From positions 1-42,191 of the forward strand of contig JAEUHH010000113.1 of NCBI GenBank assembly GCA_016795505.1: DNA of 42,191 bases. The letters run 5' to 3'. Shown here piece after piece: positions 5,861 to 36,174 of this stretch (positions are counted from its first letter, which is position 1; every line of letters starts with the position of its first letter). The notes beneath the pieces are model-generated. The model did no database searches. It was not told the DNA's origin and saw nothing but the letters and a program-made list of their open reading frames with translations. A program made the position numbers and the translations under genes. This DNA comes from Verrucomicrobiales bacterium (GTDB lineage Bacteria > Verrucomicrobiota > Verrucomicrobiia > Verrucomicrobiales > DEV007).

Positions 5861-6021
5861 CCCTGAGCCTGCCGCCTCTCTGTCCACGGCGACAATTAAG
5901 AAATGTTAAATTTCCGATGCAATCGGATTTTTCCAAAATCAGTCAGAAAAGGGCGAAAATCGTGTCTGTAACCGCCAACCGGGGTGGCGCGTCTTTCCGA
6001 TGCAACCCTGTCTGATCTCCG
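5861..6021. promoter_or_regulatory. Divergent promoter region with small hairpin
   Basis: This AT-richer gap separates the phosphatase gene (-) from the membrane protein gene (+) and should hold both promoters. At 5913-5927 the arms tccgat and atcgga flank gca and are followed by five Ts, giving a small terminator-like or attenuator-like hairpin on the plus strand. A modular repeat enters at 5997. Confidence 0.5.
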
Positions 6022-11643: not shown

Positions 11644-13197
11644 ATGTCAAACGCCGCCCTCGCCGCTGTCACCCTGGAGGAGTCCCTGAGCTGGGGCGTG
11701 CGGGATTTCGTCGTCTGCACTGGGGCGCGAAATGCCCCGCTGGTGCTGCCGCTGCTGGAGGCGCCATCGGCGGTGCGGGTGTGGCGGCATTTCGACGAAC
11801 GCAGTGCCGCCTTTTTTGCCCTCGGCTTGGCCCGGCGGGAACGTCGGCCGGTCGCCGTGGTGACGACCTCGGGCACTGCGGTGGCGGAACTGCTGCCGGC
11901 GGTGATCGAGGCTCACTATGCTGGCCTGCCGCTGTTGCTGATCACCGCCGACCGGCCGAAGCGCTTTCGCGGCACCGGCGCGCCGCAGGCTATCCTGCAG
12001 GCCCATCTGTTCGGCGAGCACAGCGAGGGCTGTCTCGATGTCGAGGCGGCGGAGGATTTTCCGCGCGGCTTCCCATGGAGCCGGCTGCGGCCCATCCAGG
12101 TGAATCCCGGCTTTGAAGAGCCCGGTGCCGAGCCGCCGGCTGTTGTTGATTGGGTAGGAGCGATGCACCGGGTCACGGCTCCGATGAGACCCTGTCTGAT
12201 CGGAGATGAGACCCTGTTGGATCGTTTTTTGGCCGACTTTGCGGACGGCGTCGTGATCCTGGGCGAGATCGACGCGACCGACCGGCCGGCGGTGGAAGGG
12301 TTTCTCAAAACGCTGGGCGCGCCTGTGTGGACCGAGGCCACCTCGGGGTTGCGCGAGTCGGCCGCGCTGGCCCATCTACTGCTGCCTGGTGGCGACGGGG
12401 CTTTCCGCGAGTGGCGCCCGGCAAAGGTGCTGCGTATAGGCGGCGTGCCGAGTCTTCGCTACTGGCGGGATCTGGAGTCGCAGCCGCGGGTACCTGTGTT
12501 GTCGGTGACGCGGACAGGCTTTTCCGGCTTGGCGCGGGCGAGTGAGACGCTGCCGTGGGTGGATTTCGCCGCTGTGGCCGTGGCCGGTCGCTCGCAAAGG
12601 CCGGACATGCCAGTCGATGAACGGCGCGAGCGCTTGCCGGCTTTTCCCCGCAGTGAACCGGCCTGGATGGGTGCGCTGTCAGAGGTGATTCCGTCTGAGG
12701 CGCGGATCTTCCTCGGCAACAGTCTGCCGATCCGGGAATGGAATCTGGCGGCGACCCGCGCGGTGCCGCATCCGGCTGTCCACGCAAACCGCGGGGCGAA
12801 TGGCATTGACGGGGAGGTCTCGACCTTTCTCGGGCTCAGCGAGGGCGCCGCGGAGGCGTGGGGGATCTTCGGTGATCTGACGGCGCTTTACGATCTGAAT
12901 GCGCCGTGGGTGCTCGATCAACTGAGCGCGGGGCGGCGGCGACTGGTGGTGATCAACAACGGCGGCGGCCGCATTTTCTCCCGCCTTGCCTCCCTGTCCG
13001 GGATCGATGAAAGCCGGAAACGGATCACTGAGAATCGCCACGCCATCGGCTTCGAGCCTTGGGCGCGGCTGTGGGGGCTGGGCTATCGGCGTCTGACCGA
13101 TCCGGCTGGCCTCGCCGAGGTTGCGGCCGAGGACGAGGCGGCGGCCATCATCGAGATCGTGCCTGATGCGGCGGAAACGGAGGCTTTCTGGGGATGA
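11644..13197 (+). CDS. menD: SEPHCHC synthase MenD
   Basis: The 517-residue ThDP enzyme joins isochorismate and 2-oxoglutarate in menaquinone synthesis. Signatures: HFDERSAAFFALGLA with the catalytic Glu that activates ThDP, TTSGTAVAELLPAVIEAHYA, LITADRPKRFRGTGAPQ, NRGANGIDGEVSTFLG, GDLTALYDLN and VVINNGGGRIFSRL. The first motif reads VCTGARNAPL where the family usually has PGSRS(A/T)PL, so two positions of this substrate-site loop are changed. Residues of about 180-194 are encoded by a dispersed modular repeat. The gene lies 22 bp after menF and overlaps menH by 4 bp (ATGA). It is somewhat shorter than E. coli MenD (556 residues). Cytoplasmic. Confidence 0.94.
   Translation: MSNAALAAVTLEESLSWGVRDFVVCTGARNAPLVLPLLEAPSAVRVWRHFDERSAAFFALGLARRERRPVAVVTTSGTAVAELLPAVIEAHYAGLPLLLITADRPKRFRGTGAPQAILQAHLFGEHSEGCLDVEAAEDFPRGFPWSRLRPIQVNPGFEEPGAEPPAVVDWVGAMHRVTAPMRPCLIGDETLLDRFLADFADGVVILGEIDATDRPAVEGFLKTLGAPVWTEATSGLRESAALAHLLLPGGDGAFREWRPAKVLRIGGVPSLRYWRDLESQPRVPVLSVTRTGFSGLARASETLPWVDFAAVAVAGRSQRPDMPVDERRERLPAFPRSEPAWMGALSEVIPSEARIFLGNSLPIREWNLAATRAVPHPAVHANRGANGIDGEVSTFLGLSEGAAEAWGIFGDLTALYDLNAPWVLDQLSAGRRRLVVINNGGGRIFSRLASLSGIDESRKRITENRHAIGFEPWARLWGLGYRRLTDPAGLAEVAAEDEAAAIIEIVPDAAETEAFWG
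12181..12224 (+). repeat. Dispersed 22-bp-module repeat, copy 2 (inside menD)
   Basis: The gatgagaccctgt core occurs at 12183 and again at 12205, 22 bp apart, as in the intergenic copies. It lies in frame within menD and encodes MRPCLIGDETLLDR. Because 22 is not a multiple of three, the two modules are read in different frames. The reading frame of menD stays open through it. Confidence 0.8.
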
Positions 13198-22888: not shown

Positions 22889-24205
22889 TCAACTCAGCGA
22901 GAGCGCGCCGGCCTCGCAGTATTTGGCGGTGCCGAAGGACTTCAGCTCATGACCCATCGCGTGGGCGAGGGAAAGCCAGAGGCGATTGTGGGGCACTTTC
23001 TCGAACTGGAGGCTGCGTCCGCCACGGATGGCGTGGCCGCGTCCGCCAACGAGCACGAGGGGAATGTCGTCGAGGGTGTGGCTGTTGCCTTTGCCCAGTT
23101 CATTGAGCCAGACGATGAGGGTGTGGTCGAGCATGCTGCCCTCGCCGCCGGGCTCTGGGGTGCTGGCGAGGCGCTGGGTCAGGTGGGCCAGCTCGCCGCA
23201 GAACCACTCGTTGATCTTGATCAGCTTTTCGACGGCTTCCTTGTTGTCGTCGGGCTCGTGGGACAGGCTGTGGTGGCCGTCTTCGACGCCGAGCCAGTTC
23301 ATCCGCGCCTGGCCGACGGAGCGCATGAACTGCAGGGTGGCGACGCGGGTCATGTCATTGGCCATGGCATTGACCAGCAGGTCGATCTGGATGCGGCTGA
23401 GGCGGGGCGTGTTGTCGTTGACGAGTTCGATGTTGGGATCGAATTCGGGCACGGGATGGGACAGGTCGCCCTGCTGCTCGTCGCGCTGGAGTTCGGCCTC
23501 CAACTCGCGGACGAGGGTGAGGTGCTCGTCGAGAAGACCGCGATCCTCGGCGCTGAGACGCGGGGCGACGCGCTGGATGTCCTCGCGCACGTCGTCGAGG
23601 ATGCTGGTCAGGCTTTCGCGGTCCTTGGTCTGACCATAGAGTTTGCCGAGCATCTGGCGGGGATCGCTGATGGGGGCGAGGGGCTGGTTCGGCCCGGCGT
23701 AGCACATCCGGGTCCACGGATCGGCGCGGTCGGGCACGGCGACACCGAATTCCAGTGAGCCGAAACGGGTGCGGGAATCCTCGCGGCTCTGGAGGAAATT
23801 CTTCATTTCCTGATCGATGGAAATGCCACGCGCCCAGCCGGCCGCGGTGTGGGAGCCGCCTTTGATGTTGCCGGGGAACAGCTCTGTGCCGGTGAGCAGG
23901 CAACTCATGCCGCGCATGTGGCTGTCGCCGTCGCCACGGATCTGGTTGCAGACGCCGCGGAGCACGGTGACCTGGTCACGCCAGGGCTCCAGTGGTTTGA
24001 GGATGCGCTTGAAAGCCAGCTTTCCGTCCGCGGAGTCGGGCCAGAATTCCCACGGGATGGTGCCGTTCGGCGAGAAGACAAAGATCAGGCGTTGTTTCGG
24101 CTTGCCGGCGGCGGCGTGGAGGGCATTCAGGCCCGGCAGGCCGGTCAGAAAGGGCAGGGCGGCGGCGCTGAGGCCGAGGTCTTTGAGAAAATGGCGGCGA
24201 TTCAT
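22889..24205 (-). CDS. DUF1552 domain protein, Tat-type signal
   Basis: The 438-residue protein begins with a twin-arginine-like signal (MNRRHFLKDLGLSAAALPFL) and continues as a DUF1552 protein: LIFVFSPNGTIPWEFWP, RGDGDSHMRGMSCLLTGTEL, a helical middle, DGHHSLSHEPDD and LIVWLNELGKGNSH. The family resembles DUF1501/alkaline-phosphatase-like secreted proteins of Planctomycetes and Verrucomicrobia and is almost always coupled to a DUF1592 cytochrome protein, as here (79 bp downstream of it). The biochemical role is unknown. ATG 24205 is chosen at the RR signal; a GTG 75 bases upstream would add 25 unlikely residues. Confidence 0.93.
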   Translation of the reverse strand: MNRRHFLKDLGLSAAALPFLTGLPGLNALHAAAGKPKQRLIFVFSPNGTIPWEFWPDSADGKLAFKRILKPLEPWRDQVTVLRGVCNQIRGDGDSHMRGMSCLLTGTELFPGNIKGGSHTAAGWARGISIDQEMKNFLQSREDSRTRFGSLEFGVAVPDRADPWTRMCYAGPNQPLAPISDPRQMLGKLYGQTKDRESLTSILDDVREDIQRVAPRLSAEDRGLLDEHLTLVRELEAELQRDEQQGDLSHPVPEFDPNIELVNDNTPRLSRIQIDLLVNAMANDMTRVATLQFMRSVGQARMNWLGVEDGHHSLSHEPDDNKEAVEKLIKINEWFCGELAHLTQRLASTPEPGGEGSMLDHTLIVWLNELGKGNSHTLDDIPLVLVGGRGHAIRGGRSLQFEKVPHNRLWLSLAHAMGHELKSFGTAKYCEAGALSLS

Positions 24206-24284
24206 GGCGGGGTGAGAGAGCGATGGCAGTGGTGAGAGAATCGGGGAAATCGGGGCGGGCGCAAGGGGCGGACGGGTCACGCGA

Positions 24285-26663
24285 TCACTGGCGGCTGGTC
24301 AGCACCACACCCTCCGGTCGGCGGGAGGCGACAGCCGCGAGACGGGCGATCAGGTCGCGCAGGTGAAAGCCGGATTTTTCGAACTGCTCGCGCGCGGCGT
24401 CGAGTTCGCCGGGACCGTAGGCCTCGATCGGCTGCTTGGCGAGGTGCTGGAACAGTTGGCGGATGAAGGTGCGGTGCGCCGACGGGCTGTTGGCGGCGTA
24501 TTCGGCCACGTCGCGGGCGCCTTTCAGATCGATGGTCTCTCCCTCGCCGGTTGTGAACGGGCTGGCGGGATCGATCGGCTTTTTCTTCTCCTCCGTGCGC
24601 CAGCGGCCCACGCCGTCGAAGTGCTCCAGGCTGAAGCCGAGCGGATTGATGGTCTGGTGGCAGCCCATGCAGGCGCGGGAACGCGTCATCTCGGTGACCT
24701 TTTCCCGCATCGTCAGGTTCGGGTCGAATTTGCTGTCGTCGAACTGGTTCGCCTCCACCGGCGACTTCAGCGTCATACCCACGATGTTGCGCGTCAGGAA
24801 AACGCCGCGGTGAATGGGCGAGGTATTGTTGTGGTAGGCGTGCGTCGCCAGCAGGAAGGGGTGGGTGATGATGCCGGTGCGCTGCTTCGCATCCATCGCC
24901 ACCCGTTGGAAGTCCGCGCCGGGCGTCGGACGGCCATAGAAGGCGCCGAGCCGATCATTGAGAAACAGCGAGTCGGACAGAAGCAACTGCCGGTAGTCCG
25001 GCTTTTCGCCCCAGGTCACCTCATCGAGGAAGAGCCACAGCGAGGTGCGCAGGTCGGCCAGCATCGCGGCATCAAATCCCGGATAGGTCTTCGCATCCTT
25101 GGCCAGATCCTCGCCGCGCTCCATCTCCAGCCACTCGTGGTAAAAGCCGCGCATCTTGGCGCGGGCGCGGGGGCTTTCCAGAGCCTTGCGGGTGTGGTAA
25201 TCGACCTTCTTCGGGTCCTTGAGTTCGCCTTTATTCGCGGATTCCAGCATGGCCTTGTCCGGCAGGGAATCCCACAGCGCCAGAGCCATCCGGGTGGCGA
25301 TGCCGTAGTCTGGGGAGGGGGCACCGTCGTCCACCAGATCCGGGTAGAGGAAGCGCGGCGACGCCACAGCCAGCAGCACCAGCCGCTTCACCGCCAGTTC
25401 CGGAGTGCGGGCCTGCTGAAAGACCGTCTCGACGTGCTGACGGCGCTCGGCATCAGTCAACGGACGCCGGTAAGCCAGTTCGAGGAAGCGCCGGGCGAAA
25501 TCCTCCACCTTTTTCCGCCGCTCGGGATCGTCCTTTTTTGTTCCCGCCAATTCATCCAGCCGGTCCACCACATAGTCGGCCGTCTGGAGCGCGGACGAGG
25601 TCACCGCCTCCTGCCAGGCTTTCGAAACCAGAATGCCCCGTTCGTAGCCCGTGCTGCGGTCGTCAGGAGGGAAGGGGGCCGAGACCACCAGCGACTCCGG
25701 CAGCTTCTCCGGGGACAGACAGCGCGCCGGGATGGGCTCCAGCACGCCGTGCGGCGGCTTCCACCAGAGCTCGATGCCGCCGGCTTTTTCCTTGTACTTG
25801 AAATAGTCCAGCTTCACCGGATAGGCCCGGCCCGCCAGCAGGTGGATGCTGGCCTTCTCCTCGCGCCAGTCATTGTGCGGCGCCACGTAGGCATCGATCA
25901 GGTGCCGGCCTTCGTCGCCGCGGTTGTTCACCCAGAGCATGGCCCCGTTGCGGGTGCGCAACACGATCTCATACACGCCCGACTCCTCGGCAATCAGCGA
26001 GCCTTCCCAACGAATCGTGAACTGAGACGGGTCGAAGGTTTTCCCCTCCGGCATCGTCGGGATGCCCTCGCCGAAGTCATAGCGCACCGGTCCCTCGACG
26101 CGGTCGAATTTCGCCCCTTCGGCCGGCTTGTCGTTGTCGTTCTCGCGTTTGAAAGTCCCGTCGTAAAAGCCCTTCAGCCCGCGCTCCGGCTTCAGCGCCC
26201 GGGCATGACCGCCGCGAAAGGCGCCCACCAGATCAGTGACCGAGTGACGGAACTGCGACTCCGTGAGCCGCGAAAAAATCGCCCGCGGCGGATGCAGCCG
26301 GGCCTGGGCTTCGGCCGAGTAAAACGCGTGATACATGTATTCCGACACCGCCCGCGCGTCCTCGCCCACGCAGAGATCCGGGTCCTCCTCCGGCATGGTG
26401 CGGTGGACGCGATCCGTCAGCCACGCGATGTCGCGGTCTCCGTGCAGCGCCTCGTCGGCTTTGTCTTTCACGCCCTCACCCTGCGGACCGTGGCAGTCCA
26501 GACAGAGCTTCTCGTAGATGGCCTTGCCTGGATGATTCGGGGGCAGCGGGCTCGCGATGGCCGATTTTGGTGCATCGGCCGCGGCCACCGGGCCGGCGAT
26601 CAGGCAGCACCAAGCCGGCGCCAGCAGCGCCCCGGTGACGAGAGGGAGGAACGATCGATTCAT
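24285..26663 (-). CDS. DUF1592/DUF1588/DUF1585 protein with cytochrome c and PA14 domains
   Basis: The 792-residue secreted protein has a signal peptide (about 1-29), a cytochrome c segment with heme motif CLDCH (54-58), a PA14-like carbohydrate-binding domain (about 190-325), and the planctomycete-type DUF1592-1588-1585 modules. Signatures are FARRFLELAYRRPLTDAERR, HRGVFLTRNIVG, a second CMGCH motif and INPLGFSLEHFDGVGRWR. Its partner DUF1552 follows 79 bp downstream. Such pairs are thought to act in periplasmic polysaccharide or electron-transfer processes, but the reaction is unknown. ATG 26663 is used; the frame extends to a GTG at 26717. Confidence 0.93.
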   Translation of the reverse strand: MNRSFLPLVTGALLAPAWCCLIAGPVAAADAPKSAIASPLPPNHPGKAIYEKLCLDCHGPQGEGVKDKADEALHGDRDIAWLTDRVHRTMPEEDPDLCVGEDARAVSEYMYHAFYSAEAQARLHPPRAIFSRLTESQFRHSVTDLVGAFRGGHARALKPERGLKGFYDGTFKRENDNDKPAEGAKFDRVEGPVRYDFGEGIPTMPEGKTFDPSQFTIRWEGSLIAEESGVYEIVLRTRNGAMLWVNNRGDEGRHLIDAYVAPHNDWREEKASIHLLAGRAYPVKLDYFKYKEKAGGIELWWKPPHGVLEPIPARCLSPEKLPESLVVSAPFPPDDRSTGYERGILVSKAWQEAVTSSALQTADYVVDRLDELAGTKKDDPERRKKVEDFARRFLELAYRRPLTDAERRQHVETVFQQARTPELAVKRLVLLAVASPRFLYPDLVDDGAPSPDYGIATRMALALWDSLPDKAMLESANKGELKDPKKVDYHTRKALESPRARAKMRGFYHEWLEMERGEDLAKDAKTYPGFDAAMLADLRTSLWLFLDEVTWGEKPDYRQLLLSDSLFLNDRLGAFYGRPTPGADFQRVAMDAKQRTGIITHPFLLATHAYHNNTSPIHRGVFLTRNIVGMTLKSPVEANQFDDSKFDPNLTMREKVTEMTRSRACMGCHQTINPLGFSLEHFDGVGRWRTEEKKKPIDPASPFTTGEGETIDLKGARDVAEYAANSPSAHRTFIRQLFQHLAKQPIEAYGPGELDAAREQFEKSGFHLRDLIARLAAVASRRPEGVVLTSRQ

Positions 26664-26846
26664 GCAGGTCAGGACAAACAGCACCGGGCCGCAGCCCGGA
26701 CTCTCCACAGATTCCACCGAAAAGACCGGAGTTCAAAGTCCATCCCGGCCCGTTTTGCCTCGCGCAAACGCGTGGTCAACCGATGCGGAGCGCGGCGCAA
26801 TCTTTCCGCCAACAGAGCAAGCCCCGTGCCGACCCGGCGGGCGGGA

Positions 26847-27648: not shown

Positions 27649-27693
27649 TCGATCAGACAGGGTTGGATCGGAGAGCAGACAGGGTCTGATCGG
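27649..27693 (-). repeat. Dispersed 22-bp-module repeat, copy 4
   Basis: Read on the minus strand this is two modules of the CCGATCAGACCCTGT family; the cagac cores lie at 27654 and 27676, 22 bp apart. It sits in the gap between the divergent membrane protein and the first kinase gene. The rest of 27600-27872 holds no gene that I can support. Confidence 0.85.
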
Positions 27694-27872: not shown

Positions 27873-27901
27873 TTGTGTCGAGTAGGAAGAGCGTGTTAGC
27901 C
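27873..27901 (+). promoter_or_regulatory. Probable promoter of kinase gene 1
   Basis: TTGTGT (27873-27878) and TTAGCC (27896-27901) are separated by 17 bases, the standard sigma-70-like spacing. The second kinase gene has TTGTGC and TTAGCC with the same 17-base spacing and the same 13 bases to the ATG, while the spacer sequences differ. That conservation pattern supports a true promoter. Transcription would start only a few bases before the ATG, implying a leaderless or nearly leaderless mRNA. Confidence 0.6.
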
Positions 27902-27914
27902 TGTCCGGCGTCTT

Positions 27915-30900
27915 ATGGATACCAATGGAACCGAATCCAGCAGGCCGGGCAGTGGGGGATTTCAGCCGCCAACGCCGGGGGAGCTTGATGCTGTGCTCGA
28001 TGCCTACGAGTTCATCCGGCTGTTGGGCCGCGGCGGGATGGGGGCGGTCTATCAGGCCCGGCAAAAAAGCCTCGACCGGCTGGTAGCCATCAAGATCCTG
28101 CCGGCTCAACTGGAGGCGGAGTCGGAGTCGGGGGACTTCCATTTCGCAGAGCGCTTCCAGCGGGAAGCGCGGGCGATGGCGAAGCTGAGCCATCCGAATA
28201 TCGTCGCGGTCTATGATTTCGGACAGTCGCGGGACGGGCAGTTCTATTTCGTGATGGAATACGTGGAGGGTACGGATTTGCACGCCCTCATCAGAGGCGG
28301 CCAGATGACCACGGCCCATGTGGCCGGCTGGATGAGCCAGATTTGCGAGGCGCTGCAATACGCTCACGACAAGGGCATCGTTCACCGCGACATCAAGCCG
28401 GCCAATATCATGATCACTCGCGAAGGGCAGGTGAAGGTGGCGGACTTCGGCTTGGCCAAGCTCGCGGGGGGAGACATGGCGGAGCAGACCAAGCTGACGA
28501 TGACGAACATGGCGATGGGTACGCCGGATTATGTGGCTCCCGAAGCGCTGGAGATCGGAGTGGAGATCGATCATCGGGCGGATTTGTATGCGCTTGGCGT
28601 GATGCTCTACGAGATGCTCACCGGCAAGGTGCCGCGCGGAGTGTGGAAAATGCCATCTGTGCAGGTGGAGGGGCTGGATTCACGCTACGACGCGCTGATC
28701 GAGCGGGCTATGGATGCGGATCGTGAGAACCGTTTCCAAAAAGCCTCGGAAATCAGCGCGACGATTTATGAGATCTCGACCACCCAACCACTCTGCACTT
28801 CGCGGCCCAAACTCGCCATGGGGTCGGCCCCGGGCCCGAATGCCGCCTCAGTGGGGGAGCGCACCCGGCAGCAATCACCGGCACCGACCAAAGGGAAAGC
28901 ACCCGCGCCACCCGCCGCCTCGAAAAGTCCCGTCGGTCTCATCGTCGGTCTCGCCGGGGGCGCGGTGGCTTTGGGACTGACGACGTTCCTCATTTTCAAG
29001 TCGAGAGACCCGGAACCTGCGGTGGCTCCATCACCGTCGGCTTCGCAATCGGTAGGGCAGCGGATCGTCGCGCCGACGCCGACGCCACCGCCGGCTCCGG
29101 TCGCGACACCCGATCCGGTGCCCGCGGCGCCCGCACCCAAGCCCACGACGCCTTCGCCTTCGCCCGTCGTGGCGGCTCCCAACACCCCGCCAGCCGCCCC
29201 GATCCCCTTCGACGCCGCCGGCTGGACCGATCTCCTCGCCACTGCCGACGTGGCGCGCGACACTGTCACGGGCAAGTGGGAAAGGACGTCCGGGGGGCTG
29301 CGACCCCAGCGTGAAGGCAGTCATGTCTTCTTGGAGTTCCAGCCGCAGCCTTCGGAAGAATACGACTACCTGATCGAATTCACGGTCTCGAATAAGGTTG
29401 TAACAGACGTCAGCGTGTCGCAGGTGTTCGTGGCGTCGGGGCAGCCGCTCGCGCTGATGATGCGGGGCGACCGTTGCTTCCTCGGTCCCCTTTTGGACGG
29501 GATGGACCAGAACAACCCCGATCGGCCGGCAGACGCCTCGTCCCCGGCGCTGGGCATCGAAGGCGGCCGCCCGGTGCGCGCTCTGCTCGAAGTGCGTCGG
29601 GGCGGCATCCGTGTCCTGTTGGATGACCAGGAAATCATCCAGTGGTCCGGAGACTCCAGCCGCTTGAAACTGCACAGTTCCTACCGGCTCCGGGACCGGA
29701 CCCGACTCGCCATTGGCGGTCAACATGCTGATGTCGTCTTCCACCGGGCCCTGGTCCGTGCCGCTCCCGGCGCTCAGTCAGCCAGTAAGTCCGGACCGAC
29801 ACCGGCCCCCACTGCCTCACCCACTCCGGCGTCGCCACCAACTCCGACGCCCATGTCGAATCCCGTTCCGGCGGTGCCACCCGCGCCCACCGATCCCGTA
29901 TCGATCCGGTTGCTGGAGCTGGAAAAAGCCTACCAAGCTGCCTATGCCACCCAGGTCGCGGCGGTGCATGACCAGGCGGTCGCCGATCTGAACGCCAAAT
30001 ACGGCGCCGCTCTCGACCGGGGCATCGCGACCGCCTCGCAGGCCGGCAAATTGGACGAAGCCCTCGCTCTGCGCGATGAAAAAACGCTCGTCCAATCTCA
30101 GGGCCATGTCCCCGAGGAGGATGCCGCCGACCTGCCCGCCGCCATCGCCGCTCTGCGCAAGACCTGGCGCGAGGCCCACGCCCCGATCCTCGCCACCCGC
30201 GATAGAAACGCCGCGCCGCTTTTGGCCACCTACGACCGCGCCCTTGCCGCCTATCAGGATGAATTGACGAGAGCGCAGAATCTCGATGGCGCATCACGCG
30301 TGAAGGCGGTGCGCGATCGGATTGCCAGCGGAGAAGCTCCGGCGACCGCCGCGCCCGCCACGAAGGCAGCAGCCCCGTCCGCCGCGGTCGGATCGCGCCC
30401 CGGCGAGATTCCGACGGCGCCCGTCGCCCCGTCGCTGCGGGCCGATCAAGTCCTGCCACCGCTGCCCAAGGCCAGCGCCGAAGAGATCCGTGCCCTCTGC
30501 GAGTGGGCCCTCACTCTCGACACCATCCGGCTCGATCTCCTCGATTCGAGCCGCCCCGTCACCGTCGCCAAAGGCCAGGCCCTGCCCAAGGGCGCCTTCA
30601 AGCTCATCGGCTTCCGCGTCGATCGCTACCCCATGGACGACACCGGACTGAAACACTTCGCCGTCCTCGGCCGCGCCCCCGATCTCGAGACCCTCGAGTT
30701 CCTTTCCTCGACCGGCCCTTTTCCCATCGAGGCCCTACGCGGCGCGACGAAGCTGAAATCCCTCACCCCCGGCGCCACCAGCTACGACGAGACCGCCTTT
30801 GCCCACCTCGCCGGACTCAAGGACCTCCAGCGCCTCGTCATCATGACCCAGGTCGAGCAATTCACCGGTCTCGGTCTCGGCTACATGCCCGAGTCCCTGC

Positions 30901-31811
30901 AAGAGCTCCATCTCGACAGCCCCACCCTTACGGGCGAGGGCATGGCTTACCTCGCCCGCTTCAAATCGCTCCGCGTCCTCAGCTTCGATCACTACAATGT
31001 CTTTTCGCGCTGCAATGTCACCGACGCCATGCTCGGCGGACTGGCCGCCCTGCGCGATCTGGAGGATCTCAATCTCTCCGGCTGCCCCGTCAATGGCACC
31101 TTACTCGCCGCCATCCCCCCGAACTCGAAGCTGAAACGGCTGAATCTCCGCGCTACTAGCACCTTCGACCCCGCCCATTTCGTCCACCTCGCCAAGCTGG
31201 GCTCCCTCGAGAATCTCATCCTCCCTCCCGTCGAGATTACGCCTGGGACCCTCGCTCTTCTTGGCAAACTCGAATCCCTCAGCGAGCTCATCATCACCGA
31301 GAATCGCACCTTCTCCGGCGAGACCTTCCGCGGCGTCAAAGGCTTCCGCAACCTGGTCAACATTGATCTCGAACTTTGCCCCATCACCGATGCCGGGCTC
31401 GATGCCATCGGCGAAGCCCTCCCCGGCCTGAAGCGCATCCACCTGGCCGGTCGCGACAACGCGCCCCTGCCCGCCACCGCCGCCGGCTTTGCCGCCTTCG
31501 TCGCCCGCGTTTCCGGGTTGGAGAGCCTCAGCCTTTCCGGCCCCACCATCAGCAACGAATGGACCACCTCCATCGGCAAACTGCCCCAAATGGGCTACCT
31601 CGTCCTCACCGCCACCGCCATTGACGACGACGGACTTCGTCACTTGCAGCCCCTGCCCCTCACCTACCTCCGCCTCTCCGGCTCCAAGATCACCGACGCC
31701 TCCATCCCTCTCCTCAAAACTTTCGCCAAACTCAACAACGTCGTCACCGACGGCACTGGCATCACCCCCGCCGGCCGCGCCGAGCTCGATGCGTTTTATC
31801 GGACGCGTTAG
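27915..31811 (+). CDS. Receptor-like Ser/Thr protein kinase with TM, LamG/DUF1080-like, coiled-coil and LRR domains (paralog 1)
   Basis: The 1298-residue protein starts with a complete Hanks-type kinase (about 31-290): GRGGMGAVYQA loop, Lys60 in VAIKIL, VHRDIKPANIM (catalytic Asp159), DFG 177-179 and APE 208-210. One membrane helix follows (about 338-361), then a proline-rich linker, a beta-rich LamG/DUF1080-like domain (about 434-618), a helical coiled-coil segment (about 660-800), and a leucine-rich repeat array from about 915 to the end (ITDAGLDAIGEALPGLKRIH-type units). The kinase should be cytoplasmic and the rest periplasmic, as in a sensor. The neighbouring paralog shares the first 19 residues and most of the kinase domain. 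No Shine-Dalgarno sequence precedes ATG 27915. The ligand and targets are unknown. Confidence 0.92.
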   Translation: MDTNGTESSRPGSGGFQPPTPGELDAVLDAYEFIRLLGRGGMGAVYQARQKSLDRLVAIKILPAQLEAESESGDFHFAERFQREARAMAKLSHPNIVAVYDFGQSRDGQFYFVMEYVEGTDLHALIRGGQMTTAHVAGWMSQICEALQYAHDKGIVHRDIKPANIMITREGQVKVADFGLAKLAGGDMAEQTKLTMTNMAMGTPDYVAPEALEIGVEIDHRADLYALGVMLYEMLTGKVPRGVWKMPSVQVEGLDSRYDALIERAMDADRENRFQKASEISATIYEISTTQPLCTSRPKLAMGSAPGPNAASVGERTRQQSPAPTKGKAPAPPAASKSPVGLIVGLAGGAVALGLTTFLIFKSRDPEPAVAPSPSASQSVGQRIVAPTPTPPPAPVATPDPVPAAPAPKPTTPSPSPVVAAPNTPPAAPIPFDAAGWTDLLATADVARDTVTGKWERTSGGLRPQREGSHVFLEFQPQPSEEYDYLIEFTVSNKVVTDVSVSQVFVASGQPLALMMRGDRCFLGPLLDGMDQNNPDRPADASSPALGIEGGRPVRALLEVRRGGIRVLLDDQEIIQWSGDSSRLKLHSSYRLRDRTRLAIGGQHADVVFHRALVRAAPGAQSASKSGPTPAPTASPTPASPPTPTPMSNPVPAVPPAPTDPVSIRLLELEKAYQAAYATQVAAVHDQAVADLNAKYGAALDRGIATASQAGKLDEALALRDEKTLVQSQGHVPEEDAADLPAAIAALRKTWREAHAPILATRDRNAAPLLATYDRALAAYQDELTRAQNLDGASRVKAVRDRIASGEAPATAAPATKAAAPSAAVGSRPGEIPTAPVAPSLRADQVLPPLPKASAEEIRALCEWALTLDTIRLDLLDSSRPVTVAKGQALPKGAFKLIGFRVDRYPMDDTGLKHFAVLGRAPDLETLEFLSSTGPFPIEALRGATKLKSLTPGATSYDETAFAHLAGLKDLQRLVIMTQVEQFTGLGLGYMPESLQELHLDSPTLTGEGMAYLARFKSLRVLSFDHYNVFSRCNVTDAMLGGLAALRDLEDLNLSGCPVNGTLLAAIPPNSKLKRLNLRATSTFDPAHFVHLAKLGSLENLILPPVEITPGTLALLGKLESLSELIITENRTFSGETFRGVKGFRNLVNIDLELCPITDAGLDAIGEALPGLKRIHLAGRDNAPLPATAAGFAAFVARVSGLESLSLSGPTISNEWTTSIGKLPQMGYLVLTATAIDDDGLRHLQPLPLTYLRLSGSKITDASIPLLKTFAKLNNVVTDGTGITPAGRAELDAFYRTR

Positions 31812-32033
31812 GTTCGGATGGTTGAAGTGATCCAAACCTTGGGGACTTGGTCTCTTCTGGTGGACAAGGCAGGAAAGGGGAGCGGGAAACCGATTGTTGG
31901 CGCTCCGGTGGCTGATTGTTTTCCCTCGCGGCTCGAAAAGGGGCGCTGCCAGTTTCGCTGGACCCACTCCGGCAGAGTGGACTGGGAGGAAATCTCGATT
32001 CCCAACCATGAAAAGCCCGGCCGTCATTTCCCA

Positions 32034-32062
32034 TTGTGCCGCGTCGGCGGTCTGTGTTAGCC
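32034..32062 (+). promoter_or_regulatory. Probable promoter of kinase gene 2
   Basis: TTGTGC (32034-32039), a 17-base spacer and TTAGCC (32057-32062), then 13 bases to ATG 32076, mirror the arrangement before kinase 1. The stretch cgtcatttcccattgtg just upstream is also shared. No Shine-Dalgarno sequence is visible. The second kinase therefore has its own promoter and need not depend on read-through from the first. Confidence 0.6.
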
Positions 32063-32075
32063 TGTCCGGCGTCTT

Positions 32076-35000
32076 ATGGATACCAATGGAACCGAATCCA
32101 GCAGGCCGGGCAGTGGGGGATTTCAGCCGCCGTCGCCGGGGGAGCTTGATGCCGTGCTCGATGCCTACGAGTTCATCCGGCTGTTGGGCCGCGGCGGGAT
32201 GGGTGCGGTCTATCAGGCCCGGCAGAAGAGCCTCGACCGGCTGGTGGCCATCAAGATCCTGCCACCGGACCTGACTGCGGGCGGGGAGGGACAGGGCTTT
32301 CATTTCGCGGAGCGCTTCCAGCGGGAAGCTCGGGCGATGGCGAAGCTGAGCCATCCGAATATCGTCGCAGTCTATGACTTCGGTCAGACGCGGGACGGGC
32401 AGTTTTACTTTGTGATGGAGTACGTGGAGGGCACCGACCTCCACTCGCTGATTCGCACGGGCAAACTGACGCCGGAGCACGTGTCTGGCTGGATGAGCCA
32501 GATCTGCGAAGCGCTGCAATACGCGCATGGGAAGGGGATCGTGCACCGGGACATCAAGCCGGCGAACATCATGATCACGCGGGACAGCCAGGTGAAGGTG
32601 GCGGACTTTGGGCTGGCGAAGCTGGGTGGGACGGAGGAGACGAAGCTGACGATGACGAACATGGCGATGGGCACGCCGGACTATGTGGCCCCCGAGGCCT
32701 TGGAGCAGGGGGTGGAGGTGGACCACCGGGCGGATCTTTACGCGCTGGGGGTGATGCTCTACGAAATGCTGACGGGAAAGGTGCCGCGCGGGAATTGGAA
32801 GCCGCCGTCGGCGCTGGTGCCGGGGCTGGACCCGCGGTTTGATGAATTGGTGGAGCGGGCGATCGAGATGGACCGCGAGGAGCGCATCCAGCAGGCCAGC
32901 GAGATCGGAGCGTCGCTGTATCGGATCGCGACGACGCCTCGGGCGGCGGAGGCCGCAACAGCCGCGGAACCTGCCGCGCCACCACAACCTCAGATGCGGG
33001 AGCGGAAAACGGCGCCTGCGTCACCACCGTCGCCTGCACCGTCTGTTCGGGCGAAGAGCCCGGCTGGGCTGATCGGGGGCCTCGTGACGGCTTGCGTGGC
33101 GCTGGGACTGGGAGGCTTTTTTTGGCTGAAGCCGAAGCTGTTTCCGCCGCCGGAATTGGCAAAGCCGGCACCCCAGCCGGAGATGGTGGCTCCGAAGCCG
33201 CCCCCGAGCGCCCCGGTGGCAGCCACGCCGACGCCGGAGAAGGCAGCCCCTGAGGTAAAGAAGGCAATGCCCGCGCCGCAGCCGGCGCCGTCCCCGCCCA
33301 CCGCTGCGGCCGTTGCGCCGACCTTACCCGAGGCCATCGACACCGCCCCGTGGGCCGATGCCATCGATCTGCTCCCTTACATCGATCTGGGACTGGATAC
33401 CCTAAAGCCCGGCTGGAAACGCGACGGGACCGCCCTGATCACCGAAAAAAATCCCACCGCCTTGGTCAAACTCCCCGTCGTCGCCCCGGAGGAATACGAC
33501 CTGCGCCTCCAAATCACCCGCACCACTCCGGGAGCTCAAATTGAGCTGTTTCTTATCCGCAAAGAGCGCGAATTCGTTTGGGCAGGCGGCGCCTATGGCA
33601 ACGGGATGTTCGCATTTGGCGGGGAGAACGGCAGCCACCTCTATGCGCACAGCCCCGGCGAGGCGAAAAAACAGGCCCAGCCCAGTTTCGAGGAAGGCCG
33701 GACCTATCAGGTGCAAGTGTCTGTCCGCAACAGCGGCGCGGCAGCCTATGTCGATGGGCAGTGGGTCACCCGCCTGCCCGCCGACTTGGGCGAAATGCGA
33801 CTGCCGGACGAATCGCCGATGGCGGGCCTAGGCCAACTGGGCCTTTCCACCTACCAAGCCAGCTTTCGGGTCGATGCCCTCCAGCTCCGCGAGATCACCG
33901 GCAAGGCCAAATTTCTTCGACCGCCCACCGCGCCCGCCCCGAAGCCGCCGGACCCGGCCATGACCCAGACTCCGGAACCCGCGATGCCTCCCGCGCCTGC
34001 GCTGGTGACGCCTCCGCCCGCGCCCACCGATCCGGTGTCGATCCGGCTGGCCGAACTGGAAAAAAACTACCTCGACGCCTATGCCGCCCAGATCTCCCCG
34101 AAGCACGATGCCGCCCTCGCCGCGCTGAACGCCAGCTACACCGGCCGGCTCGACCGCGACATCGTCGCCGCCTCGCAGGCGGGCAAACTCGACGAGGCAC
34201 TCGCCCTGCGCGACGAACTCGCCCGAATGAAGGCCCACGGCACCGTGCCGGAAGAGGATGCTCCTGAACTGAGAGAGGGGCTGAAACCCCTCCGCACGAC
34301 CTACCGCTCCGCATTGAAAACCCTGCTCACCCAGCGCGATCAGGCCGCCGCCCCGCTCCAGGCCGCCTACGACCGCGCCCTCGCCGCCTATCAGGACGAA
34401 CTGACCCGCGCGCAGAATCTCGATGGCGCCAGCCGCGTGAAGGCCGTGCGCGAGCTCGCCGCCAGCCAGCGCGAGTCGTCGCCCGGGACCGCCACCACCT
34501 CACCGCAGACCCCGCCCCAGCCCGCCCTCGGCCAGCCCGCCGGAGCCATCGTCCTGCCGCCTCTGCCTCCGGCACCGCCCCTGCGCGCCGACCAGGTGCT
34601 GCCCCCGCCGGCCAAGGCCACCAACGAGGCCATCCGCGCCATGGCCGACTGGATGTTCCGGGATTCGCGCTCAAGCCTCACCATCGCCGAGGGCCCTCTG
34701 ACGCGCGTGATCAAGAGTTCCGCGGAACTGCCGGCGGGTAATCTCAAGGTGGTGAAGTTCTACAAGTACAGTTTCGACAACGACGCCGAATCGAAATCCC
34801 ACCTCCCCACCATTGCCGGGCTCCTGGATTTGGAGGAGATTTCTTTCGCCAAGCACTTCAATCACTTTCCCATCGAGACCCTCAGTGGCCTGATCAAACT
34901 CAAAACACTCAACCTCACTCTTGGGACACTCAAGGACGCCGACTTTGCTCATCTCACCGGGCTGAAAAGCTTGAGCTCGCTCAGCTTCAATGGCAACAAA

Positions 35001-35945
35001 GGCTTCACCGGCACCGGACTCATGTACCTGCCCGAGGGCCTCACCTCCATCAGCCTCACCGGTTGCGATCACCTCAGCGCCGAGGGCATCGCCGCCCTGC
35101 AGCGCTTCAGATCGCTCCAGAGGCTGTATCTGGAGGAAGTGCACTCGGTGACCGATGACATGCTTTGCTCGCTCGCCGCCCTGACCAAACTCGAAACTCT
35201 CGAGATCAGCGGTAAGCAACTCGATGGCACCTTCCTCGCTGCGCTTTCCCCGAAATCACTCAAGAGACTGATTTTCGTCAGACCGAATTCCCCACTCAAA
35301 CCCGAGGCGCTCGTGCAACTTGGCCGGTTTCAGGCGCTTCAGGAACTCCAGCTGCAGCCCGCTCCCCTGACACCCGAGTCCGTCGCCGCCCTCGCCGGGC
35401 TCGGGGAATTGGGGAGCCTTTGCCTCAACTCGCCGTTCAACGGCGAGACCCTTGTCGGAGTGAAGGGATTCCGTTCCCTGACCTCCCTCGACCTTGATGA
35501 TGCCCCGGTCACTGACACCGGCTGGTCGGCCATCGTCCAGGCGATGCCAGACCTGCAATCGATTTCCCTCAATCGGCCCGCGGAATCCAAAGCCCCTCAA
35601 AACGCCGCCGCCTTTGGAGAACAGATCGGCCGGCTCAAAAACCTCAGCTTCTTAAGCTTGACCGGTCCCACCTTCACCGACGACTGGCTGCTCGCCGCCA
35701 GCCGTGCCAAAAACCTCGAGGCCATGCACATCTACTGCCCGCAGGTCACCGATGCCGGCCTCGTCCATCTCCAGGATTTGCCCCTCACCGCCCTCCGCAT
35801 CAGTACGACCTCGATCACTGATGCCTCCATCCCCACCCTGAAAAAGTTTCCCAAGCTGATCGGCGGTTACATCTACTTCCCGGAAAAAATGAGCCCCGCC
35901 GGCATCGCCGAAGTGAAGGCCCACTGCGACAACCGCAGGGAGTGA
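32076..35945 (+). CDS. Receptor-like Ser/Thr protein kinase with TM, LamG/DUF1080-like, coiled-coil and LRR domains (paralog 2)
   Basis: The 1289-residue protein repeats the plan of the gene before it: kinase (GRGGMGAVYQA, Lys60, VHRDIKPANIM, DFG, APE), membrane helix at about 329-350, a proline/alanine linker, a beta-rich domain (about 421-608), a coiled coil (about 651-791) and LRR units from about 908 to the end. The kinase domains are nearly alike, while linkers, beta domain and LRR surfaces have diverged strongly. That pattern suggests a shared cytoplasmic signal with different sensed ligands. The coiled-coil segment AYQDELTRAQNLDGASRVKA is identical in both. All catalytic residues are present, so it should be active. 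Confidence 0.92.
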   Translation: MDTNGTESSRPGSGGFQPPSPGELDAVLDAYEFIRLLGRGGMGAVYQARQKSLDRLVAIKILPPDLTAGGEGQGFHFAERFQREARAMAKLSHPNIVAVYDFGQTRDGQFYFVMEYVEGTDLHSLIRTGKLTPEHVSGWMSQICEALQYAHGKGIVHRDIKPANIMITRDSQVKVADFGLAKLGGTEETKLTMTNMAMGTPDYVAPEALEQGVEVDHRADLYALGVMLYEMLTGKVPRGNWKPPSALVPGLDPRFDELVERAIEMDREERIQQASEIGASLYRIATTPRAAEAATAAEPAAPPQPQMRERKTAPASPPSPAPSVRAKSPAGLIGGLVTACVALGLGGFFWLKPKLFPPPELAKPAPQPEMVAPKPPPSAPVAATPTPEKAAPEVKKAMPAPQPAPSPPTAAAVAPTLPEAIDTAPWADAIDLLPYIDLGLDTLKPGWKRDGTALITEKNPTALVKLPVVAPEEYDLRLQITRTTPGAQIELFLIRKEREFVWAGGAYGNGMFAFGGENGSHLYAHSPGEAKKQAQPSFEEGRTYQVQVSVRNSGAAAYVDGQWVTRLPADLGEMRLPDESPMAGLGQLGLSTYQASFRVDALQLREITGKAKFLRPPTAPAPKPPDPAMTQTPEPAMPPAPALVTPPPAPTDPVSIRLAELEKNYLDAYAAQISPKHDAALAALNASYTGRLDRDIVAASQAGKLDEALALRDELARMKAHGTVPEEDAPELREGLKPLRTTYRSALKTLLTQRDQAAAPLQAAYDRALAAYQDELTRAQNLDGASRVKAVRELAASQRESSPGTATTSPQTPPQPALGQPAGAIVLPPLPPAPPLRADQVLPPPAKATNEAIRAMADWMFRDSRSSLTIAEGPLTRVIKSSAELPAGNLKVVKFYKYSFDNDAESKSHLPTIAGLLDLEEISFAKHFNHFPIETLSGLIKLKTLNLTLGTLKDADFAHLTGLKSLSSLSFNGNKGFTGTGLMYLPEGLTSISLTGCDHLSAEGIAALQRFRSLQRLYLEEVHSVTDDMLCSLAALTKLETLEISGKQLDGTFLAALSPKSLKRLIFVRPNSPLKPEALVQLGRFQALQELQLQPAPLTPESVAALAGLGELGSLCLNSPFNGETLVGVKGFRSLTSLDLDDAPVTDTGWSAIVQAMPDLQSISLNRPAESKAPQNAAAFGEQIGRLKNLSFLSLTGPTFTDDWLLAASRAKNLEAMHIYCPQVTDAGLVHLQDLPLTALRISTTSITDASIPTLKKFPKLIGGYIYFPEKMSPAGIAEVKAHCDNRRE

Positions 35946-35949
35946 TCCC

Positions 35950-36174
35950 GTACCGTCGGCCATCAGACAGGGTGCCGGCATCACCGACGCCGGCCTCGCG
36001 CAGCTCAGCCACCTCGAGATTACCGGCCTGCGCATCGACCAGACCAAAATCACCGATGCCACCATCCCCACCCTGAAAAAATTCCCCAAATTGCGTGGGG
36101 TCAACATGTCCCCCGCGTTCAGTGCCGCCGGGCGGGCCGATCTGGAGGCCTTTTTGAAAAGCCGCACGCCCTGA
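35950..36174 (+). pseudogene. C-terminal remnant of a third kinase-LRR paralog
   Basis: Frame reading from about 35971 gives GAGITDAGLAQLSHLEITGL, then RIDQTKITDATIPTLKKFPK, and ends ADLEAFLKSRTP at TGA 36172-36174. This aligns with the last LRR unit and tail of the two intact kinases (TDAGLVHLQDLPLTALRIST and ITDASIPTLKKFPKL in paralog 2). There is no start codon, kinase or upstream LRR, so it is the relic of a lost copy. Its 5' edge coincides with a half-copy of the dispersed modular repeat at 35960-35973. Confidence 0.85.
35960..35977 (-). repeat. Half-copy of the dispersed modular repeat
   Basis: On the minus strand this reads as one module (accctgtctgatgg). No second module lies 22 bp away, so it is a single half-site. 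It sits at the junction between the second kinase's stop and the third-copy remnant, which may mark a recombination point. Confidence 0.5.

Follow-up and report, generated by a model that had tools for sequence, protein, structure and literature searches.

Bacterial receptor kinases usually carry the kinase inside the cell and the sensor outside (PMC3601408, PMC6213207). The PASTA kinases PknB, PrkC and Stk1 are activated by dimerisation (PMC6213207, PMC3601408). In the PVC superphylum, the main text of one study describes kinases with a single transmembrane (TM) helix and periplasmic DUF1080, FGE-sulfatase, WD40 or TPR domains (PMC11032199). LRRs are found in one Pseudomonas kinase of a 2005 listing (PMC1262709).

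Here we describe two tandem paralogs, genes A and B, in a window of 42,191 nucleotides (the whole stretch of Verrucomicrobiales DNA analysed). Both proteins start with MDTNGTESSRPGSGGFQPP and share one layout, composed of a Hanks kinase, one TM helix, a Pro-rich linker, a putative beta-sandwich, a helical coil and an LRR solenoid (Table 1). The open reading frames and the Pfam matches to the kinase and to LRR_14 confirm an earlier note on this DNA, which had proposed two adjoining genes of ~1290 residues with this order of parts. The same note took position 36174 as the end of the pair. Gene B stops before this point, and 36172–36174 is the stop codon of a separate LRR tail, which matches only residues ~1232–1298 of A. 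A gene scan of the window places a DUF1552/DUF1592 cytochrome set, a glycosyltransferase and methyltransferases next to the pair; these flanking genes indicate no ligand, substrate or phosphatase partner.

Table 1. Coordinates of the tandem kinase genes and their parts, numbered from the first letter of the window
Feature	Position	Strand	Basis and remarks
Gene A, receptor-type Ser/Thr kinase, 1298 aa	27915–31811	+	ORF list; Pfam
A, 5' homogenised tract	27893–28094	+	78 nt identical to B (27893–27970), then 96–98% to about codon 60
A, kinase domain, residues 29–290	27999–28784	+	Pfam; motifs GRGGMGAVY, VAIK, REARAM, HRDIKPAN, DFG and APE intact
A, lone TM helix, residues 342–360	28938–28994	+	Hydropathy
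A, putative beta-sandwich, residues 431–612, DUF1080/concanavalin-lectin-like	29205–29750	+	Profile–profile comparison, 93.9%; Foldseek with low-confidence model
A, helical coil module, residues 657–805	29883–30329	+	Coil searches; predicted model
A, LRR solenoid, residues 916–1285, ~14–15 repeats	30660–31769	+	LRR_14; predicted model; Foldseek
Gene B, paralog of A with domains in equal order, 1289 aa	32076–35945	+	ORF list; Pfam; region identities
B, 5' homogenised tract, counterpart of the A tract	32054–32255	+	Codon counts; Fisher p = 8e-7
B, kinase domain, residues 29–287	32160–32936	+	Pfam; 83% identical to A over the domain
B, lone TM helix, residues 331–349	33066–33122	+	Hydropathy
B, putative beta domain	33318–33893	+	23% identical to A; profile–profile comparison
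B, coil module	34020–34469	+	Coil search
B, LRR solenoid	34809–35897	+	Pfam; 40% identical to A
Truncated third copy: final ~67 codons of an LRR tail, lacking a kinase and a proper start	35962–36174	+	Sequence comparison

The kinase domain is recognised as PF00069 (Pkinase) at residues 31–242 of both proteins, with 188 bits and an E-value of 3e-55 in each. The catalytic set is complete in A and B (P-loop, catalytic Lys, HRD, DFG and APE), with an RD-type HRDIKPAN loop, and by these motifs both belong to the Hanks-type (eukaryotic-like) Ser/Thr kinases. The single predicted TM helix between an N-terminal kinase and a C-terminal sensor places them in the layout of the PVC transmembrane receptor kinases. 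Other classes do not accommodate the two proteins. Scores against the PASTA kinase model (PknB/Stk1, NF033483) are 280–291 bits for a cut-off of 450, and Pfam finds no PASTA repeats in either protein; those against the MADS6 defence kinase model (NF047741) are 164 and 181 bits for a cut-off of 460. Plant LRR receptor-like kinases require an N-terminal LRR ectodomain and a C-terminal kinase, an order that is reversed in A and B.

In 50 of the 52 kinase-plus-coil entries, a set in which a few loci are counted twice, the kinase is separated from the coil by a hydrophobic segment. Furthermore, coil proteins that have no kinase (L036, L037 and L075, the last composed of coil and LRR) begin with signal-peptide-like segments, suggesting that the coil lies outside the membrane. 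Hydropathy and this sharing of modules most likely place the kinase in the cytoplasm, and the coil and LRR in the periplasm.

LRR_14 is found in the last third of both proteins with 44.4 and 56.7 bits, above the curated cut-off of 40. In the predicted model of the outer half of A, the LRR solenoid has a pLDDT of ~75–85, and its Foldseek matches include internalin A, TIR1, TLR8 and ribonuclease inhibitor. These results support the assignment of both outer ends as predicted LRR solenoids, and of A and B as LRR proteins. Most of the divergent LRRs escaped an iterated LRR HMM, so Pfam was used for the relatives described below.

No named Pfam domain is found in the beta and coil regions of A and B, and PF06439 (DUF1080) gives no direct match in either protein. 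A profile of the beta domain built from six proteins matches a DUF1080 profile from the same kinase family with a probability of 93.9% and an E-value, valid for a single comparison, of 1.6e-7 over 65 columns; four unrelated control profiles reach 0.1–0.3%. Among PDB sequences, the beta domain retrieves galectin alone (E 0.7–0.9). Its predicted model is poor (pLDDT 45), and the Foldseek matches (a sialidase lectin-like domain, CBM66, galectin and a keto-glycoside hydratase) serve as a hint only at this low confidence. Since the model nevertheless resembles concanavalin-type lectin folds, the earlier name "LamG/DUF1080-like" appears reasonable. The earlier note had made its reading depend on domain searches recovering both the LRRs and the beta-sandwich: the former are recovered directly, above the cut-off, and the latter, which falls in no Pfam family, indirectly, by profile–profile comparison and Foldseek.

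The adjoining segment, previously called a coiled coil, is modelled as a pair of long helices and two shorter ones. A PDB search returns no relative of it. At an E-value of 1e-6, clear coil matches come from several families of the order to which the window belongs; elsewhere in the phylum, a weak match is obtained in just 5 of the sampled genomes. Because it has no Pfam match in the scanned proteins and occurs mainly within one order of Verrucomicrobiota, we regard the coil as a candidate undescribed domain.

Amino acid identity between A and B ranges from 23 to 96% by region, far from the equal divergence along the whole length that the earlier note had named as counter-evidence. On the kinase side, it is 96% in the N-terminal tail, 83% in the kinase, 26% in the juxtamembrane segment and 58% in the TM helix. 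On the outer side, it is 44% in the Pro linker, 23% in the beta domain, the least conserved region of all, 26% in the LRR cap and 40% in the LRR, while the coil shows 58% in its first part and 94% over its last 35 residues. The linkers, beta domain and LRRs thus differ as widely as had been noticed. The claim of nearly identical kinase halves and of one such coil segment holds for the end of the coil; in the kinase half, near identity is confined to residues 1–60.

These identities bear on the function of the outer half, which could instead serve as an adhesin or scaffold and hold the cell on polysaccharide, the kinase merely reporting attachment. The resemblances of the low-confidence beta model to sialidase lectin domains, CBM66, galectins and keto-glycoside hydratases and the long Pro-rich linkers would suit such a role. 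We consider it improbable, as what A and B have conserved is the single TM helix and a kinase that is intact and of the RD type, and the beta domain is the part conserved least.

Constraint and recent copying were separated by counting codon differences at positions with the same amino acid, relative to the expectation for unlinked codons. In most regions of A and B the ratio is 0.84–1.11, near the unlinked expectation, and synonymous sites are near saturation across most of both genes. The codon counts indicate that the duplication is old and that the kinase has been conserved mainly by purifying selection. Codons 1–60 depart from this pattern with a ratio of 0.18 (Fisher p = 8e-7 versus codons 116–290), and a weaker excess of codon likeness is observed in the coil (ratio ~0.55; Fisher p = 9e-4 versus LRR). 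At the 5' end, 78 identical nucleotides span the start codon and include ~20 nucleotides of leader. The simplest cause of this near-identity would be gene conversion between the copies, and we describe the tract as gene-conversion-like; selection acting on the leader and start could also have produced it.

In the LRR, a register of the A repeats set by hand gives 19% identity to B at strand-exposed positions, whereas convex and loop positions reach 43% (p = 0.0007). Similarly, when strands and helices are assigned from the predicted model, identity is 23% for polar strand residues versus 50% for polar helix residues (p = 0.018). These counts suggest that the binding face has diversified between A and B. 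An automatic register, which covers fewer repeats, shows no strand-face difference (37% versus 39%), and for this reason the diversification is kept as a suggestion. Positive selection on the LRR surface, for which the earlier note had proposed to look, is at most suggested, as one of the three counts shows no effect. dN/dS was dropped as a measure of it, being indecisive with synonymous sites near saturation.

Alternatively, A and B may be ordinary old paralogs, in which catalysis constrained the kinase and the sensor drifted as selection on it relaxed, new specificities not being selected for. With synonymous sites near saturation, time alone would yield large divergence, and the automatic register is as expected from drift. 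This explanation is possible, and we hold it to be the less likely one: the two other counts find less conservation at strand-exposed than at convex positions, the frames of both A and B stay open over their full length, and relatives carry whole sensor types exchanged on near-identical kinases, which drift does not produce.

The window's own genome contains at least eight further related kinases. Among them are RCC1 ends (C106, C71 and C79) and an end without a recognised Pfam domain (C28); at C61, an LRR-like stretch recognised by eye is flanked by at least two beta domains. A search of other genomes, as had been proposed, recovered the same order of parts, with kinase, coil and LRR ends, in L078, L081, L084 and L123; kinase and LRR without coil are combined in L092, L112 and L148. 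The ends of other relatives are FGE-sulfatase, DUF1080, RCC1, PD40 or a weak C-type-lectin match. The closest kinase outside the genome (L021, Akkermansiaceae MAG) is 76–80% identical and has DUF1080, coil and an RCC1-like end, but no LRR. Comparison of the window with the loci of L021, L078, L093 and L085 gives no synteny match beyond the kinase genes and their antisense ORFs. Tandem sets of such kinases are also seen at G001:C462 (L088).

Of 91 kinase domains placed on a tree, 13 belong to LRR carriers, and the presence of the LRR changes 10 times, against a minimum of 11 changes in 50 shuffles of the LRR labels. On this quick tree, the AU test rejects a single clade of LRR kinases (p = 9.4e-6). 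The exchange is most direct in G004, a genome of the same family as the window, where L123 and L128 encode kinase–coil–LRR proteins and L130 a kinase followed by three FGE domains. The DNA of L123 and L128 is 89–90% identical to that of L130 over ~955 nucleotides that begin near the start. Past this stretch no similarity is left, which places the break just past the TM helix. The tandem neighbour of L123 is the same kind of kinase (79–80%), also with three FGE domains. The L128 ORF stops early inside its LRR.

As judged from these sequences, one kinase–TM(–coil) chassis has repeatedly acquired LRR, RCC1, FGE-sulfatase or DUF1080 ends across the order. This supports the earlier idea of a diversifying sensor family with a common output, and, with unrelated sensor types on near-identical kinases, the relatives show sensor diversification more strongly than A and B themselves.

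Taken together, A and B are likely to be receptor Ser/Thr kinases of the inner membrane, with interchangeable sensors in the periplasm, and to have arisen by an old tandem duplication. In such receptors, a cytoplasmic kinase would be joined by one helix across the inner membrane to a Pro-rich stalk, carrying the lectin-like beta-sandwich, coil and LRR outside. The LRR, the beta domain or both would most likely bind a ligand (a sugar polymer, a protein or an envelope fragment), and binding would most likely cluster or re-orient a receptor dimer. The kinases would then trans-autophosphorylate their activation loops and signal to shared cytoplasmic targets, a mechanism that we infer by analogy with PknB and PknD (PMC6213207, PMC3601408). 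The old duplication would have given A and B, with the third copy left as an LRR tail only; purifying selection and copying of the 5' end between A and B would have preserved the likeness of the kinases as the sensing halves grew apart.

There is also a resemblance to recognition repertoires, in the tandem copies, the truncated third copy of the LRR, the sensor swaps and the LRR and lectin-like parts. A bacterial Hanks kinase, PknS, is reported to be required for resistance to amoeba predation (PMC13147305). The pair could accordingly belong to an immune-like repertoire directed at other cells, phage or predators, its diversity selected by an arms race. This seems doubtful to us, since no defence genes are found among the window genes scanned, the MADS6 scores (164–181 bits) lie far under their cut-off, and FGE and DUF1080 ends equally suggest envelope or polysaccharide sensing. 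Similarly speculative, and in our estimate a long shot, is a dedicated receptor-diversification system, in which 5' gene conversion keeps the chassis uniform, recombination exchanges and diversifies the sensor halves, and truncated copies such as 35962–36174 are remnants or donors. If such a system existed, each strain would have its own recognition repertoire and a single output.

On our preferred reading of A and B as receptors with interchangeable sensors, the relatives constitute a set of natural sensor swaps on a fixed output that is open to experiment, down to same-genome pairs (~89% kinase DNA identity, LRR versus FGE). These LRR/FGE pairs allow the contribution of the sensor to be asked with the kinase unchanged. 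They also show that LRR receptor kinases have been built in bacteria repeatedly and apart from plants.

The earlier note knew of no described system with this exact combination. Its parts have precedents, in the PVC kinases with DUF1080, FGE, WD40 or TPR domains (PMC11032199) and in the LRR kinase (PMC1262709). The kinase–beta–coil–LRR order, the coil module and sensor exchange on near-identical kinases do not appear in the literature we located, which covers the field incompletely and holds nothing on point for LRR kinases in Verrucomicrobia. The PVC kinases, as presented in the main text of that study, share with A and B a Pkinase at the N-terminus, a single TM helix, sensor repeats at the periplasmic C-terminal end and many lineage-specific copies. 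They differ in that this main text, centred on Planctomycetota, contains no LRRs, coil module or sensor exchange, although the supplementary tables may list LRR (PMC11032199). PknB, PrkC and Stk1 likewise have the kinase inside, a TM segment and an outer C-terminal sensor (PMC6213207, PMC3601408), built from the PASTA repeats that A and B lack. PknD of M. tuberculosis has the same kinase–TM–repeat sensor arrangement (PMC3601408), with a beta-propeller in place of LRR and beta-sandwich; relatives in the present family do carry RCC1-like or PD40 propellers. The kinase-first order, pointed out previously as the reverse of plant receptor kinases, is indeed opposite, but it is unremarkable among bacteria, being standard for PknB/PrkC-type kinases (PMC3601408, PMC6213207). 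Plant LRR receptor-like kinases also combine an outer LRR, one TM helix and an inner Ser/Thr kinase. With the chain order opposite, this likeness is an analogy only, not a sign of common descent of the combination.

An interspersed repeat with a unit of 22 bp, approximately CCGATCAGACAGGGTCTGATCGG and nearly palindromic, is found in the window and genome-wide, each place holding one to four units in tandem. Its 12-mer ATCAGACAGGGT occurs 122 times in the window's genome, versus 0 for the reversed control and 0–10 across 28 relatives. The truncated LRR copy, a C-terminal tail without a kinase, has a single unit at its 5' edge.

LRR, WD40, and RCC1 repeats are all present on a single kinase at L098:2457-6263. 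Another kinase, on contig C61 of the window's own genome (L025:2947-6384), has an LRR-like stretch, without a match in Pfam, that is flanked on both sides by beta domains. In genome G004, from the same family, a kinase–coil–LRR gene adjoins a kinase–coil–3xFGE gene. Genome G001 has a cluster in which three genes for kinases and one for a coil protein follow one another; one member comprises 2156 residues with several RCC1-like stretches.

Coordinates of the repeat places and gene groups
Feature	Location	Strand
22-bp repeat	window 27650-27693	+
22-bp repeat	window 35962-35973	+
22-bp repeat	window 12189-12200	-
22-bp repeat	window 6005-6016	-
DUF1552 gene and adjoining DUF1592/1588/1585/1595 cytochrome-PA14 gene	window 22889-26717	-
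Kinase/coil gene cluster	L088 (G001:C462:5000-22000)	
Tandem kinases with unlike sensors	L123:437-7997 (G004)	

The DUF1552 gene beside a cytochrome–PA14 gene of this type is a frequent pair in Planctomycetes and Verrucomicrobia.
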